From the NCBI RefSeq assembly GCF_020297365.1, contig NZ_JAIXIG010000022.1, positions 1 through 64,000 on the forward strand: a DNA stretch of 64,000 bases, given 5' to 3'. The position numbers were made by a program, and so were the translations under genes. Source of the stretch: Curtobacterium oceanosedimentum. GTDB lineage: Bacteria; Actinomycetota; Actinomycetes; Actinomycetales; Microbacteriaceae. The notes below the pieces were generated by a model that was given only the letters and a program-made list of their open reading frames with translations, made no database searches and was not told the DNA's origin. This document shows positions 10,743-14,724 of this stretch, one piece after another; positions within the stretch are counted from its first letter, which is position 1, and each line of letters starts with the position of its first letter.

Positions 10743-11412
10743 CGTCGGCCGCCAAGCGGTACCCGGCACCACGGACCGTCTCGATCGCGGCGCGTCCGAA
10801 CGGTCGGTCGAGCTTGCGGCGCAGGTGCCCGACGTACACCTCGACGATGTTCGGGTCGCCCTCGAAGTCGACGTCCCAGACGTTCTCGATGACGTCGCGC
10901 TTGGAGCGGACCTGTCCCGGGTGCCGGGCGAGGTACTCGAGCACCGCGAACTCGCGGCTGGTGAGCTCGACGGCGACGTCGCCGCGGCGCACAGTGCGCG
11001 CGGCGGGGTCGACGACCAGGTCGCCGAGCGTCAGCACGGTCGGACGTTCCCGCGCGCCGCGGCGGACGAGGGCACGGAGCCGCGCGACCAGGACCGGGTG
11101 CGAGAACGGCTTCGTGACGTAGTCGTCGGCGCCGGCGTCGAGCGCCTCGACCTGGTCCCACTCGCCGTCCTTGGCGGTCAGCATGAGCACCGGGGTCCAG
11201 TCGCCGTCGGCGCGGAGCCGAGCACACACGGCCCAACCGCTCAGGCCCGGCATCATCAGGTCGAGCACGATCGCGTCGTAGCGGAACTCGCGTGCGTGCC
11301 AGAGGCCGTCCACGCCGTCGTGCGCGACGTCCACCGCCCAGCCCTCGGCCTCGAGCCCGCGGCGCACGCCGTCGGCGAGCCGGACCTCGTCGTCGACCAC
11401 GAGCACACGCAT
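10735..11412 (-). CDS. OmpR-family response regulator
   Basis: The protein has 225 residues. The receiver domain (1-115) has acidic pocket DD at 7-8, phosphorylation site Asp51 (IVLDLMMPG), Thr79 and Lys101 (YVTKPF). A winged-helix DNA-binding domain (about 130-225) ends in the usual VRGAGYRLAADGG. It is the partner of the downstream kinase. The start at 11412 is supported by a -10 box CAGGAT 7 nt upstream and by family alignment (MRVLVVDDE). Tandem GCTTCAG boxes at the -35 position suggest the regulator activates its own operon and the PepSY lipoprotein gene. Confidence 0.92.
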   Translation of the reverse strand: MRVLVVDDEVRLADGVRRGLEAEGWAVDVAHDGVDGLWHAREFRYDAIVLDLMMPGLSGWAVCARLRADGDWTPVLMLTAKDGEWDQVEALDAGADDYVTKPFSHPVLVARLRALVRRGARERPTVLTLGDLVVDPAARTVRRGDVAVELTSREFAVLEYLARHPGQVRSKRDVIENVWDVDFEGDPNIVEVYVGHLRRKLDRPFGRAAIETVRGAGYRLAADGG

Positions 11413-11419
11413 GGCGACG

Positions 11420-11453
11420 ATCCTGCCGTGCGCCGCTGAAGCAGCGCTGAAGC
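11420..11453 (-). promoter_or_regulatory. Promoter with paired GCTTCAG boxes upstream of response regulator
   Basis: On the minus strand GCTTCAG occurs at 11447-11453 and 11436-11442, start to start 11 bp. A -10 box CAGGAT (11425-11420) lies 10 nt downstream and 7 nt before the ATG at 11412. Layout and box sequence match the site upstream of the PepSY lipoprotein. Confidence 0.6.
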
Positions 11454-11498
11454 AGGGCCGTACCGACACGGCGCCAGCCGCGACCGCGGCCGGTCGGG

Positions 11499-11711
11499 TC
11501 AGACCAGCAGCAGGATCCCGCCGATCACCGACGCGACGGCGATGGCCAGCGCGATGAGCAGGAGCACGAGGTGGACCGTGTAGAACGTCGTCGGCTTGCC
11601 GGCCGCGTCACGGGCGCGGGGGTCCGAGGCGACCCGCTGGAAGAAGCGCGGCCAGGTCACGACGTTGAAGACGGCACCGAGGAACAGGACGACTGCGGCG
11701 AAGACGAACAC
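11499..11711 (-). CDS. SCO4848-family small membrane protein (70 aa)
   Basis: Two membrane helices (about 2-20 and 46-68) flank a loop with conserved-looking WPRFFQRVASDPRARD and PTTFYTVH. This pattern agrees with my memory of the actinobacterial SCO4848 family of tiny membrane proteins (W..F...V..D.RA ... P..F.TVH). The function of the family is not known to me. The GTG start at 11711 follows a -10 box TAGGAT by 6 nt (leaderless). Confidence 0.75.
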   Translation of the reverse strand: MFVFAAVVLFLGAVFNVVTWPRFFQRVASDPRARDAAGKPTTFYTVHLVLLLIALAIAVASVIGGILLLV

Positions 11712-11717
11712 GGTCCG

Positions 11718-11723
11718 ATCCTA
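11718..11723 (-). promoter_or_regulatory. -10 box TAGGAT, leaderless start of SCO4848-family gene
   Basis: On the minus strand TAGGAT ends 6 nt before the GTG at 11711, with no ribosome-binding site between. Confidence 0.5.
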
Positions 11724-11790
11724 CGCACCGGGCCGGTGGTGCTCGGCCGCCCCCAACGCGGCCGAGTCCCGACCCGGCTGGCCACAGCTC

Positions 11791-11808
11791 CTGTAGCACC
11801 TGCTACAG
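11791..11808. promoter_or_regulatory. 18-bp palindrome, candidate operator
   Basis: CTGTAGCACCTGCTACAG has perfect 8-bp arms around a 2-bp centre, the size and symmetry of a homodimeric repressor site. It lies about 67 bp upstream of the -10 box of the small membrane protein gene and downstream of the MAB_1171c-like gene. The bound protein is unknown. Confidence 0.4.
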
Positions 11809-11876
11809 ACCCTACACGGCCCGTCGTGCGGCGTCGAGCACCCCGGTTCCGCCCTGACGCGGCCGGTGCCGGGCCG

Positions 11877-12803
11877 TCAGGCGGTCTCGAGCGCCGCTTC
11901 CGCCTCGGCCAGGACCGCCCGCTCGTCCTCGCGCAACGAAACCCGGGCGGAGCGCACGCCGTCCGTGATCTCGACGATCCGTCGGCTGAGACGTGTCGCG
12001 GGGTCGTCGCTCGCGGGGTACGCGTTGTCGACCCCGAAGCGCTCGTGCAGGGGGCCGAGGCGCCGCAGCGCCTGCTCGACGCGTCGGTCCCGGCGTCGAC
12101 GGGAGATCCGGTGACCGATGACGAGCAGGAGCATCCCGGACGCCGCGCACAGCACCGCTCCGGGCGTGGTGACGTCGTACGGCAGGCCGAGCGCGTGCGT
12201 CAGCTCGAGGTCGCCGACGACGTGGGCCACGTCCATCACGACGACCACCACCATGCGCACGACCCCGAACACCCCGCCGAGCACGAGCGCCCAGAGACCG
12301 ACCAGGTCGGTGGTCGTCCGCGCCTCGCGCAACCGCAGCACGCAGATGATGCCCGTCGCGCCGAGCGCCAGCCCCAGGTACACGGTCTGTGCCGCGGCGT
12401 AGACGGTCGCCGCCGGGTGCGACCCGGCGTCGAGCATGAACGTGGTCGTGGTGGCCGGCGGGTCGAGCACCACGAAGGCGGTCACGACCACGACGAGGAC
12501 CGCGACGAACGACACGGCGATCGCGTTCCGGAGCCACGGCCGTGCGGCGCCCACGGCCTTCGCGACGCCCCACAGCAGCGTGCCTGTGCCGGCGACCATC
12601 AGGCAGTCGCTGACGACCGTCACCACGTTGCGGCCACCGAGCAGCGGGTCGAGCCACCGGTACAGCGGATCGACGTTCGTCACGATGGTCGCGGCGAAGA
12701 GCAGGAACGTGAACGCCAGCGTGCGGTCCTGCCCGCGCTGCAGGACGAAGAGCGCGATCGTCCCGACGATGAGCAGCACCGCCATGACGACGGCGACGAT
12801 CAC
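11877..12803 (-). CDS. MAB_1171c/DUF6545-like seven-helix membrane protein
   Basis: The protein has 308 residues. Seven hydrophobic helices (about 2-24, 32-50, 65-88, 95-118, 140-162, 172-197 and 215-235) are followed by a basic stop-transfer (HRISRRRRDRR) and a cytoplasmic C-terminal domain containing RLSRRIVEITDG. That last motif and the topology match what I remember of actinobacterial MAB_1171c-type putative transporters with a DUF6545 domain, often encoded beside XRE regulators and ImmA-like peptidases. The GTG start overlaps the peptidase stop by 4 nt (GTGA), so it is the third gene of one operon. Whether it transports anything or acts as a membrane sensor is not known. Confidence 0.75.
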   Translation of the reverse strand: MIVAVVMAVLLIVGTIALFVLQRGQDRTLAFTFLLFAATIVTNVDPLYRWLDPLLGGRNVVTVVSDCLMVAGTGTLLWGVAKAVGAARPWLRNAIAVSFVAVLVVVVTAFVVLDPPATTTTFMLDAGSHPAATVYAAAQTVYLGLALGATGIICVLRLREARTTTDLVGLWALVLGGVFGVVRMVVVVVMDVAHVVGDLELTHALGLPYDVTTPGAVLCAASGMLLLVIGHRISRRRRDRRVEQALRRLGPLHERFGVDNAYPASDDPATRLSRRIVEITDGVRSARVSLREDERAVLAEAEAALETA

Positions 12804-13264
12804 CCGAAGACCCCGCGGAAGGCGCTCGGGCGGCCGCGATGCTGACGGATCAGGGTGGCGAGGCGGTCGGCGAACACCTCGGCCTCGTGCTCGTACGCGT
12901 TCGAGAAGATCCCGCGGGCCAGCGCCCGTTCGACCTTGTACTCCGGCAGGTCGGGGATCACGTCGCGGATGTAGGCCGACTGCGGCGCGTGCTCGTGGTG
13001 GCGGTGCAGGACGTGCCCGAGCTCGTGGCCGATGACGAACGACCGGAAGGTCGGCGACGCGGTCGGCGAGATCATCACGAGGTGCGCCCGCTCGAGCGTG
13101 GCGACGAAGCCGCACACCGGTTCCGCGGCGAGGAACTGCTCCTCACGCACGACGATCGGCTTGCCGACGACCTGGGCGGCGGCGGCGACGGCCTGGTCGA
13201 CGTCCGACCAGCCCTCGTCGGCACCGCGCTCCCAGAACGCGTCGAGCAGGGCGTCCGTGCTCAT
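12800..13264 (-). CDS. ImmA/IrrE-family metallo-endopeptidase
   Basis: The protein has 154 residues. The zinc-binding motif HELGH (His80, Glu81, His84) lies in FVIGHELGHVLHRHH, and a downstream Glu in YEHEAEVFADRLA probably supplies the third ligand. This is the ImmA/IrrE (DUF955) signature. ImmA and IrrE cleave XRE-type repressors on receipt of a signal, so the natural target here is the EspR-like regulator encoded immediately upstream. The ATG overlaps the regulator's stop by 4 nt (ATGA), and its own stop overlaps the membrane-protein start by 4 nt. Length is normal for a stand-alone peptidase without its own DNA-binding domain. Confidence 0.9.
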   Translation of the reverse strand: MSTDALLDAFWERGADEGWSDVDQAVAAAAQVVGKPIVVREEQFLAAEPVCGFVATLERAHLVMISPTASPTFRSFVIGHELGHVLHRHHEHAPQSAYIRDVIPDLPEYKVERALARGIFSNAYEHEAEVFADRLATLIRQHRGRPSAFRGVFG

Positions 13265-13701
13265 GCGACGGTCCCCCGCTGCGACTCCTCCTCGAGCACC
13301 TCGGCGATGCGCCGCAGTGCCTCGGGCGAGAGCTCGCCGGGGAACGTGCGCGCCGCGAAGCCGCTCACCCGCGCGGAGCGCAGGGACCGGACGAGGGCGA
13401 GCTGGGCGCCGATCCGCTCCGGCACGGCGCTGTCCTCGAGCAGGAAGCGCTCGTCGACCTCGAAGAACCCGGCCAGCAGACGCAGCAGGTCGGAGTCCCG
13501 GTTGCGGCGACCGTCGCCCGACAGCATGTAGGTCCACTTCGCCCGCGAGAGCGACCCGCCCCCGGCGGCGACGTACTCCTCGATCGAGGCGAACGGCACC
13601 GGTGTCCCGCGCTGGGACTCCTCGAAGTCGAGCAGCAGGTTGAGCCGGCGCGCGAGTTCGGCTGCGTCGAGGGCGCCGCCCTTCGGGTCGTCGGTGTCCA
13701 T
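13261..13701 (-). CDS. EspR-like XRE-family DNA-binding protein
   Basis: The protein has 146 residues. A helix-turn-helix region (about 10-85) contains SLSRAKWTYMLSGDGRRNRD, followed by LLAGFFEVDERFLLED. A C-terminal helical dimerisation-like part (90-146) contains LVRSLRSARVSGFAART and LSPEALRRIAEVLEEE. The layout is like mycobacterial EspR: an XRE domain with long recognition-loop insertion and a C-terminal dimer domain. The ATG at 13701 has a strong GGAGGAG site. It is the first gene of a three-gene operon with 4-nt overlaps, and probably regulates its own promoter. The peptidase downstream may inactivate it. Confidence 0.82.
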   Translation of the reverse strand: MDTDDPKGGALDAAELARRLNLLLDFEESQRGTPVPFASIEEYVAAGGGSLSRAKWTYMLSGDGRRNRDSDLLRLLAGFFEVDERFLLEDSAVPERIGAQLALVRSLRSARVSGFAARTFPGELSPEALRRIAEVLEEESQRGTVA

Positions 13702-13757
13702 CGCGGGCTCCTCCCCAGCCGTGTCCGCGCGACCCGTCGGCCCGGCGCGTGGACGCC

Positions 13758-13794
13758 ATGGTAGCGCGGGCGCCCACCGCCGCGCCGGTACCCT
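13758..13794. promoter_or_regulatory. Divergent promoters of the EspR-like operon and the YigZ gene
   Basis: On the minus strand TACCAT (13763-13758) is a candidate -10 box for the EspR-like operon, leaving a leader that contains its Shine-Dalgarno site. On the plus strand TACCCT (13789-13794) ends 6 nt before the GTG at 13801, giving a leaderless YigZ transcript. Confidence 0.5.
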
Positions 13795-13800
13795 CGGGAC

Positions 13801-14451
13801 GTGCCCCGACGCTTCCCCGCCACCATCGCGGCAGCGGTCGAGCACGAAATCGTCATCACGAAGTCGCGCTTCATCACGACGCTCGCACCCGTCGACGGCG
13901 TGGAGGACGCCGACCGCGTGATCGCCGAGGTCCGACGCCGCCGCTGGGACGCCCGGCACAACTGCACCGCGATGGTCACGGGCGTGCTCGGCGACCAGGC
14001 ACGCTCCTCCGACGACGGCGAGCCCTCCGGGACCGCGGGCGTCCCGATGCTCGAGGTCCTGCGACGCCGCGAGCTGACCGACGTCGTCGCGGTGGTCACA
14101 CGGTACTTCGGCGGGGTCAAGCTCGGGGCCGGCGGACTGGTGCGCGCCTACTCGACCTCGGTCGCCGAGGCACTCGACGCGGCCGCGCTCGTCCGTCGTG
14201 AGGCGCTCACGCGGGTGCGCTTCGACGTCGACCACGCCGACGCCGGACGGCTCGACAACGTCCTGCGGGAGTGGGTCCGGCACCACCACGCGACCCTCGG
14301 CCCGACGACGTACGGGCGTGCGGCGACCTTCGAGGTCTGGGTCCCCGCCGACGCCCTCGACGTGCTGCGGGCCGACCTGGCTGCGGCGTCGGCCGGGGCC
14401 GTCGACCCCGTCGTCGGCGAGGAACGGATCGTCGACGTGCACGCGGACTGA
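13801..14451 (+). CDS. YigZ/IMPACT family protein (UPF0029)
   Basis: The protein has 216 residues. The UPF0029 signature is intact: DDGEPSGTAGVPMLEVLRRR (about 75-95) followed by VVVTRYFGGVKLGAGGLVRAY. A second, DUF1949-like alpha/beta domain follows (about 140-210). Members bind nucleic acids or interact with the translation machinery; the eukaryotic homologue IMPACT regulates GCN2, but the bacterial role is not settled. The GTG start is fixed by the TACCCT box 6 nt upstream. It ends at a hairpin shared with the oppositely oriented tRNA gene. Confidence 0.88.
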   Translation: MPRRFPATIAAAVEHEIVITKSRFITTLAPVDGVEDADRVIAEVRRRRWDARHNCTAMVTGVLGDQARSSDDGEPSGTAGVPMLEVLRRRELTDVVAVVTRYFGGVKLGAGGLVRAYSTSVAEALDAAALVRREALTRVRFDVDHADAGRLDNVLREWVRHHHATLGPTTYGRAATFEVWVPADALDVLRADLAAASAGAVDPVVGEERIVDVHAD

Positions 14452-14515
14452 CTTCTCGGCTGCTGTGCACCTCGGGCGTGTCCCGCTGTCGGCGCGTGTA
14501 CGGTCCCGGAACGCA

Positions 14516-14548
14516 CGAACGCCCCGACTCGATGAGCCGGGGCGTTCG
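14516..14548. terminator. Hairpin between YigZ gene and tRNA-Lys
   Basis: CGAACGCCCCG (14516-14526) pairs perfectly with CGGGGCGTTCG (14538-14548) across an 11-nt loop. It lies just downstream of the 3' end of tRNA-Lys and can serve both strands. Confidence 0.75.
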
Positions 14549-14556
14549 TCCTGCGG

Positions 14557-14629
<73 letters not shown>

Positions 14630-14661
14630 ATGTTCCGGCTTCCGTGCCGCAACGGGAATCA

Positions 14662-14671
14662 ACAATAGCAT
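14662..14671. promoter_or_regulatory. Overlapping divergent -10 boxes of tRNA-Lys and thiol peroxidase
   Basis: ACAATAGCAT holds TATTGT on the minus strand (14667-14662), a plausible -10 box for tRNA-Lys, and TAGCAT on the plus strand (14666-14671), a plausible -10 box for the peroxidase. Confidence 0.4.
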
Positions 14672-14724
14672 GGGTTTCGCGTGCCCACGACCACTCGTCG
14701 GCACACGACGCGAACAGGAGCACC

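Follow-up and report, generated by a model that had tools for sequence, protein, structure and literature searches.

The 64,000-nucleotide stretch of contig NZ_JAIXIG010000022.1 from Curtobacterium oceanosedimentum analysed here (the window; assembly of 3.3 Mb in 63 contigs) contains, on its minus strand at 11877–13701, an operon of three genes for a transcriptional regulator, a zinc peptidase and a seven-helix membrane protein. We think it somewhat probable that this operon is a proteolytic transcription switch gated by a membrane receptor. Inspection of the open reading frames (ORFs) of the window confirmed three real genes in the order regulator, peptidase, membrane protein. They encode an EspR-like helix-turn-helix (HTH) regulator of 146 amino acids (P0001, 13261–13701, ATG at 13701), an M78 (ImmA/IrrE/CapP-like) zinc peptidase of 154 amino acids that consists of the catalytic core only (P0002, 12800–13264) and a MAB_1171c/DUF6545-related membrane protein of 308 amino acids with a GTG start (P0003, 11877–12803). 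At each junction the neighbouring genes share 4 nt (ATGA and GTGA). The initial annotation, made from the sequence alone, had described three same-strand genes with 4-nt stop/start overlaps and an intact HELGH zinc site, and the ORF coordinates bore this out. Since the overlaps recurred across 37 loci found via the membrane gene, the gene arrangement is more than chance.

The membrane gene had a match in 33 of 35 other Curtobacterium genomes, the two without one being poor assemblies (790 contigs; 73% complete). Weak matches at E 1e-4 to 9e-4 were left out of this survey and of its counterpart outside the genus. A scan of the collection with an alignment of the membrane protein retrieved 37 loci, 36 orthologous and one paralogous; 36 of the 37 relatives were Curtobacterium and one was labelled Microbacteriaceae bacterium. 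The trio was complete and in order in all of these loci. Regulator and peptidase genes overlapped by 4 nt in 37/37 loci, and peptidase and membrane genes in 29/37, with gaps of 13–55 nt in the other eight. Alignments of the regulator, the peptidase and the membrane protein, which comprised the window together with 31, 26 and 37 of the 37 loci, gave mean column identities of 87%, 76% and 72%, respectively. A peroxiredoxin-type gene, a small downstream gene and a tRNA-Lys gene each accompanied the trio in 35 of 37 loci, with some kilobases between tRNA-Lys and the trio in L101, L108 and L130; the paralogous locus (L132) had none of the three. Because the site is syntenic across the genus, the window copy looks vertically inherited and not like a mobile-element repressor. 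The initial statement that the operon is not simply such a repressor agrees with this synteny and with the lack of mobile genes noticed nearby, but it has to be qualified by the occurrence of relatives on plasmids.

The association was also seen from the side of the regulator. A search of 39 genomes gave 22 strong, orthologue-level matches, including that of the window's own genome, and 21 of these adjoined a membrane-gene match (coordinates compared by eye). At the exception (L189, 3490–4417, one draft assembly) the small downstream gene comes immediately after the regulator, with the peptidase and membrane genes both missing, which fits a peptidase–membrane pair but fits other readings too. 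Eight of nine paralogue-level matches adjoined a membrane match, and the ninth (L190) was a trio cut by a contig end. Twelve matches were more distant: four adjoined membrane matches, and eight loci were inspected, seven of which had their own small peptidase and membrane-type ORF alongside; L178 had neither. The membrane ORFs of L173, L175 and L176 were not recognised by the membrane profile, and hydropathy gave about seven hydrophobic segments for L173 and L175 (overlapping segments merged by eye). In L171 and L172 the gene order was peptidase, membrane gene, regulator. By eye, L173 (4299–7487) and L174–L177 are very diverged Curtobacterium quartets of regulator, peptidase, membrane and hydrolase-like genes; some of their regulators seem to bear an extra N-terminal HTH, and some of these loci lie beside conjugation-type-looking genes. 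A further trio in the window's genome (L001:579–2421; L004:8271–11108) is diverged in sequence, has 4-nt overlaps like those of the window operon and precedes a hydrolase-like gene. The membrane protein of this paralogous trio scored 83.3 bits against the NCBIfam model NF042915 (MAB_1171c), below the cut-off of 100. A third match to this model in the genome (L003) was dropped as spurious; it overlies what is presumably a CrcB-type fluoride channel pair.

Beyond Curtobacterium, 29 of 34 membrane genes had the peptidase gene immediately upstream; the regulator gene lay upstream on the same strand at 15 and anywhere in the stretch at 20. Because the peptidase is so much more constant, the core of the system is the peptidase–membrane pair, to which a regulator is often added. 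In three of the five exceptions the membrane gene was the second of two in tandem; the remaining two were L064, which has both partner genes (regulator and peptidase) downstream, and the truncated L067. Both L067 and the N-containing L051 were kept in these counts. On named plasmids (12 stretches with 15 membrane genes), the peptidase was upstream in 15/15 cases, the regulator upstream in 10/15 and anywhere in 15/15. Of 61 genomes drawn from a single genus, which we infer, partly from the named plasmid relatives, to be Streptomyces, 48 carried the membrane gene, one of them in 11 copies. At 28 further loci of this draw, the peptidase was upstream in 21 and the regulator in 12; among the seven loci without an upstream peptidase, five (L145, L147, L148, L149 and L151) had an EspR-like gene downstream and two (L167 and L168) had neither. 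Peptidases of Streptomyces-type loci, found by profile search, bear HEVWH or HELWH. The adjacency profiles were trained on proteins of the first 63 loci, many of which were later counted, with the HE[LV]WH peptidases outside the training set, and loci L179–L184 lay outside the analysis. The initial view of a single recurring gene set depended on adjacency elsewhere, and it held within the genus, outside it and on plasmids.

The pairwise distances of the three proteins were correlated over 44 trios (r = 0.73, 0.80 and 0.66; 0 of 2000 permutations reached each value). Of the 45 loci given, L173 was left out, its membrane ORF being unrecognised by the profile. For distant pairs only, the correlation went down to 0.39–0.53, and nearest neighbours agreed in 22 to 26 of 44 cases. 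Two or three membrane genes were found close together in several places (L066, L069 and L075; genomes G457, G461 and G475), and in L066, L069 and L075 the multiple membrane genes stand behind one peptidase, suggestive of receptor pairs. Plasmid matches amounted to 22 and 37 records (59 rows), of which 16 were inspected and 12 entered the plasmid adjacency counts. The window's own membrane protein had no match among plasmids. No match was found in phages for the membrane protein of L053 or in viral contigs for that of L062, these relatives' proteins being the ones searched there.

The assignment of the second protein to the ImmA/IrrE-type peptidases, already made in the initial annotation, was supported by family models and by structure. 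Pfam Peptidase_M78 matched with 24.5 bits (cut-off 22), and Peptidase_M48 matched barely above its cut-off (20.6 against 20.3 bits) over 17 residues only. In a PADLOC scan confined to the three operon proteins, capP was the best match to the peptidase (E 2.6e-8). The HELGH zinc site (H80, E81 and H84; 13013–13027, minus strand) is intact, and H80, E81, L82, H84 and E125 were invariant in the 27-row peptidase alignment, so that a conserved HExxH is followed by a conserved downstream glutamate. E125 lies in an ExxAE motif (12890–12892, minus strand) and is presumably the third zinc ligand, a role that we assume from IrrE/ImmA proteins. Models were built with AlphaFold2 from shallow alignments (38 rows for the membrane protein and 27 for the peptidase, mostly from one genus). 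The peptidase model, with a predicted local distance difference test score (pLDDT) of 80.3, was compared with known structures by Foldseek and in a second structural comparison, and in the latter CapP (7t5t, Z 10.6, 127 residues), IrrE (3dti, Z 8.4) and PprI (8sln, Z 8.0) ranked ahead of other zinc peptidases. BlaR1 was a weak entry in both structural comparisons (Foldseek E 1.3, Z 4.3).

The alignments covered residues 6–174 of the 278-residue CapP and 27–159 of PprI (240–248 residues). As they stop at these positions and the whole window chain has 154 residues, the C-terminal part that CapP and PprI carry beyond the catalytic core is absent from its chain. According to the accessible text of a study of PprI, its activation by single-stranded DNA (ssDNA) needs R85, R207 and R267, with possible help from a GAF-domain patch, and cleavage of CapH by CapP is likewise ssDNA-activated (PMC10904395). 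Two of these three residues fall beyond the stretch aligned to the window peptidase. M78 peptidases with known substrates target a partner HTH repressor (DdrO, CapH and ImmR in the accessible parts of the sources); by analogy, the partner HTH regulator would be the cleavage target here.

The regulator had no match in Pfam or NCBIfam and matched PADLOC capH at E 0.014. Searched against the PDB as a single sequence, it found EspR at E 0.0092. With a 32-row profile, four EspR chains (4ndw, 3r1f, 3qf3 and 3qwg) were matched with E values between 7.2e-6 and 5.1e-5, three of them over most of the length, and the match at 7.2e-6 took in positions 7–134 of 146. The profile thus established a near-whole-length likeness to EspR, as expected from the initial placement of an EspR-like regulator at the head of the operon.

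The membrane protein matched NF042915 at E 4.5e-20 over profile positions 4–317 of 362, with 72 bits against the cut-off of 100. The match to Pfam DUF6545 (PF20182) reached 13.6 bits (E 0.098; cut-off 24.4). Since the first score falls below its cut-off and the second far below its own, the protein is, as judged by these alignments, a diverged MAB_1171c relative, with a tail shortened in Curtobacterium. The initial assignment to DUF6545/MAB_1171c therefore stands as an alignment along most of NF042915 but not as membership, both cut-offs being missed. The AlphaFold2 model (pLDDT 84.6; predicted template modelling score 0.76; 38-row alignment) agreed with the proposed seven-helix protein, showing seven long helices, the last of which reaches residue 256, followed by helices at 268–286 and 292–307. 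With helix ends set by hand from this model, lysine and arginine accounted for 6 of 18 residues in the inside loops, 2 of 43 in the outside loops and 15 of 73 in the tail. By the positive-inside rule, this charge pattern indicates an N-out/C-in orientation.

The tail carries the motif RRIVEITD (R274, E278 and D281; 11961–11984, minus strand). In a 21-row alignment, D281 was conserved in 21/21 rows and R274 and E278 in 19/21, and the best-conserved residues were mostly in the tail; in the 38-row alignment R274, V277, E278, D281 and R284 were invariant. The mean top-residue fraction in the 21-row alignment was 0.47 for residues 245–285, 0.36 for 1–235 and 0.30 for 286–308, these bounds having been picked after viewing the alignment. 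The RRIVEITDG to which the initial annotation had drawn attention in the cytoplasmic tail thus belongs to the best-conserved stretch of the membrane family. A variable membrane part with a constant tail is the pattern expected of a receptor family. In the second structural comparison, the best 50 rows (Z 14.7 to 12.8) were all seven-transmembrane receptors, including one receptor-containing fusion (GPR155/LYCHOS). The best match was GPR34 (Z 14.7, root-mean-square deviation 4.1, 229 aligned), which is within the chance range of helical bundles, and the best PDB sequence row was a weak match to GPR132 (E 0.014, profile positions 74–193). The model suggests a receptor-like arrangement of seven helices; homology to receptors is not claimed.

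Many relatives have a further same-strand gene within about 200 nt after the membrane gene, encoding a variable enzyme. Pfam was applied to one or two examples per class; for the others the class was taken from the annotation of the record or judged by eye. These fourth genes encode cytochrome P450 (L084 twice, L087, L089, L093, L094, also L186–L188), flavin adenine dinucleotide-dependent oxidoreductases (L066, L069, L071, L074, L076–L078, L091), PAP2-like proteins (L008, L009, L010, L041, L072, L092; both PAP2 Pfam matches were below cut-off), amidases (L083, L090, L091) and an amidohydrolase (L065); that of L082 had no Pfam match. Examples of loci with no fourth gene are L007, L040, L048, L062, L070, L079–L081, L085, L086, L088 and L095. 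After the paralogous Curtobacterium trio, one gene family came next in 8/8 loci, with a 4-nt overlap in 7/8. It is alpha/beta-hydrolase-like by a weak Pfam match (19.6 bits, below the cut-off of 27), and members of this family, recognised by blastp (E 7e-7 to 5e-35), also come after the very diverged trios L173, L174, L175 and L177.

A Mycobacterium intracellulare plasmid (L084:6140–14517) contains two four-gene cassettes of regulator, peptidase, membrane protein and P450 with a methyltransferase gene between them. On Streptomyces plasmids, peptidase–membrane modules lie beside genes annotated for ribosomally synthesized and post-translationally modified peptides or lanthipeptides (L095:5478–13832; L185:1–7170). 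In L083 (7041–9219) a transposase-like gene was seen by eye between the EspR-like regulator and the peptidase.

Upstream of the operon, a 99-nt stretch (13702–13800, minus strand) separates the regulator from a divergent gene at 13801–14629, which we take to be of YigZ type. This gene was absent in 11 of the 36 orthologous loci, and in nine of these the trio directly follows tRNA-Lys. The stretch holds TACCAT at 13758–13763, where the initial annotation had placed a promoter, and TA[CG]CAT recurs, by eye, in many orthologues that have the divergent gene. The hexamer is thus real, but a sigma-70 consensus scan of 11400–14700 gave no promoter. In the paralogous operon, a palindrome, TGTCTGAGACA, precedes the regulator in 8/8 loci aligned; the window promoter region has no site of this type. 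With at most two mismatches, TGTCTGAGACA had 10 matches (3+7) in the window's own genome against 8 (5+3) for the reversed pattern, and a one-mismatch site (L134) had no evident target among the ORFs listed. As the palindrome shows no genomic excess, no regulon was found.

The initial annotation had suggested a membrane-gated switch of regulated proteolysis, and the analysis supports this idea in part. For the switch we propose the following course of events. The seven-helix protein would be the receptor, and its diverse membrane part would take the signal, perhaps a small hydrophobic compound; the hydrophobic nature of the ligand is a guess prompted by the fourth-gene enzymes. The conserved helical tail in the cytosol, with its R...E..D motif, may relay the signal. 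The peptidase would act as a bare catalytic core of the CapP/PprI type whose missing C-terminal part is replaced by the receptor tail, and contact with this tail would either license or block cleavage. Once the EspR-like regulator is cut, the promoter of the operon itself would be released, and with it, in many relatives, the downstream enzyme gene. More tentatively, and as a possibility that we would put below the switch itself, such loci may form a large unrecognised actinobacterial class, in which N-out/C-in bundles resembling G-protein-coupled receptors (GPCRs) would signal through an M78 protease encoded by a gene of its own; destruction of an EspR-type repressor by this protease would then induce an adjacent small-molecule-modifying enzyme. 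Ligand pockets and enzymes would diversify in this class, with tail and protease staying constant.

Several observations weigh against the proposed switch. The family is patchy: the membrane gene was present in 5 of 23 genomes outside Curtobacterium, and in a draw across the phylum 18 of 396 genomes matched at E <= 1e-10 (at most four candidates scored per genome among the matches listed), with none of the five other same-family genomes having the gene at this threshold. Outside the genus the regulator accompanies the pair much less regularly than the peptidase does, and the correlation of protein distances was not corrected for species history. Foldseek gave nothing at E <= 0.001 for the peptidase model (PprI at the top with 0.02). 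For the membrane model its best E value was also 0.02, and rhodopsin ion pumps and a ceramidase with seven helices were listed as well; in the second comparison Z values near 14 can arise by chance between helical bundles, and the PDB is very rich in GPCRs. The last 23 residues of the tail are poorly conserved, and among the most divergent relatives in Curtobacterium the tail motif is seen by eye to be less strict. The TGTCTGAGACA palindrome shows no excess in the genome. The window operon itself has no fourth gene, the next gene being 70 residues long and 165 nt away.

Some of the evidence can be read otherwise. Conservation in the membrane protein is highest at the tail motif, and outside the genus a membrane gene is accompanied more often by the peptidase (29 of 34) than by the regulator (15 or 20 of 34). 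Both would also be expected if the membrane protein were the substrate or membrane anchor of the peptidase and the EspR-like protein merely regulated the operon. We consider this unlikely in view of the partner HTH repressors cut by M78 peptidases with known substrates and of the presence of the regulator in all 37 genus-level loci. Improbable to a greater degree is a toxin–antitoxin-like or selfish stress module. It is suggested by the plasmid copies (the 22 and 37 records above), by three plasmid records in which the peptidase is annotated 'toxin' (annotation names only) and by the proposal of COG2856–Xre pairs as toxin–antitoxin systems in the accessible part of Makarova et al. 2009, where Xre–membrane pairs were set aside. 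It is opposed by the syntenic chromosomal site in the genus, by the lack of a phage match for the L053 membrane protein (the window protein lay outside that search) and by the variable metabolic enzymes encoded as fourth genes. The regulator that stands alone in L189 would also fit toxin loss and so does not decide.

The NCBIfam name 'MAB_1171c family putative transporter' raises the further alternative that the membrane protein is a transporter, with the HTH protein and the peptidase regulating export or import of a compound. In the accessible text of a study of Mycobacterium abscessus, the MAB_1171c mutant formed about half the biofilm and had a minimal inhibitory concentration of cefoxitin of 4 compared with 16 for the parent, which its authors read as the effect of a transport gene; several other mutants in the same table also had 4 (PMC8707978). 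Light-driven ion pumps, too, are seven-helix bundles. A transporter nevertheless seems to us about as improbable as a toxin–antitoxin-like module, given the predicted seven-helix N-out/C-in topology with a helical tail and the best 50 structural rows, which were all receptors or, for GPR155, receptor-containing; the absence of a transporter row there is no proof. Very improbable, finally, is a DNA-damage switch like CapP–CapH or PprI–DdrO with the membrane protein as a passenger. CapP is the best structural and the best PADLOC match of the peptidase, but the C-terminal part with the ssDNA-contacting residues is absent, and adjacency to the membrane gene was near-universal in the loci examined, though these were found via the membrane gene.

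If the receptor-gated switch is real, it would add to the known bacterial routes from receptor to gene one in which a seven-helix receptor acts through a separate soluble protease on a repressor, in place of a kinase, a G protein or a fused protease. Gene families that now bear the labels 'toxin', 'hypothetical protein' and 'putative transporter' would thereby gain functions. With the membrane gene in 48 of the 61 presumed Streptomyces genomes, it could account for part of the still unmapped regulation of P450s, of oxidoreductases and of enzymes of lipid type. In the literature searched, MAB_1171c was named in one paper, and DUF6545 and 'ParH-like protein' in none; the literature matches listed included no published account of the trio; subscription papers and preprints were thinly covered, so that absence from print is unproven.

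Among known systems, BlaR1–BlaI and MecR1–MecI resemble the proposed switch in principle, since there too a sensor in the membrane, coupled to a zinc protease, brings about the loss of a repressor. In the window, the putative sensor and the protease are separate genes, and the protease belongs to M78 and not, like the BlaR1 family, to M56. EspR of Mycobacterium tuberculosis, which resembles the window regulator over nearly its whole length (profile E 7.2e-6), is a stand-alone nucleoid-associated regulator; the window regulator shares an operon with a peptidase, and EspR is not known to do so. The MAB_1171c family/DUF6545 has in common with the window protein an alignment along nearly the whole profile and the same R, E and D in the tail, and differs in the score below 100 bits and the shortened tail of the Curtobacterium proteins. 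CapP–CapH is similar in the peptidase fold (Z 10.6; PADLOC capP E 2.6e-8) and in having an HTH regulator, whereas the window peptidase lacks the C-terminal part, its regulator is EspR-like (capH at only E 0.014) and a seven-helix gene is adjacent. No genes of cyclic-oligonucleotide-based antiphage signalling systems were noticed nearby on reading the ORFs, no search of the neighbours having been made. PprI/IrrE–DdrO of Deinococcus has the same M78 catalytic core (Z 8.0–8.4), but according to the accessible text on PprI that protein bears further C-terminal parts in one chain and is ssDNA-activated, whereas the window peptidase has the core only and a membrane partner. ImmA–ImmR of ICEBs1, to judge from the accessible part of the literature, likewise pairs an XRE-type regulator with an M78 peptidase; the window set differs in its third, membrane gene and in its chromosomal location off any element. 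An M78 protease with an HTH regulator is thus a known kind of system, and what is new here is the fixed seven-helix partner together with the missing C-terminal part of the peptidase.

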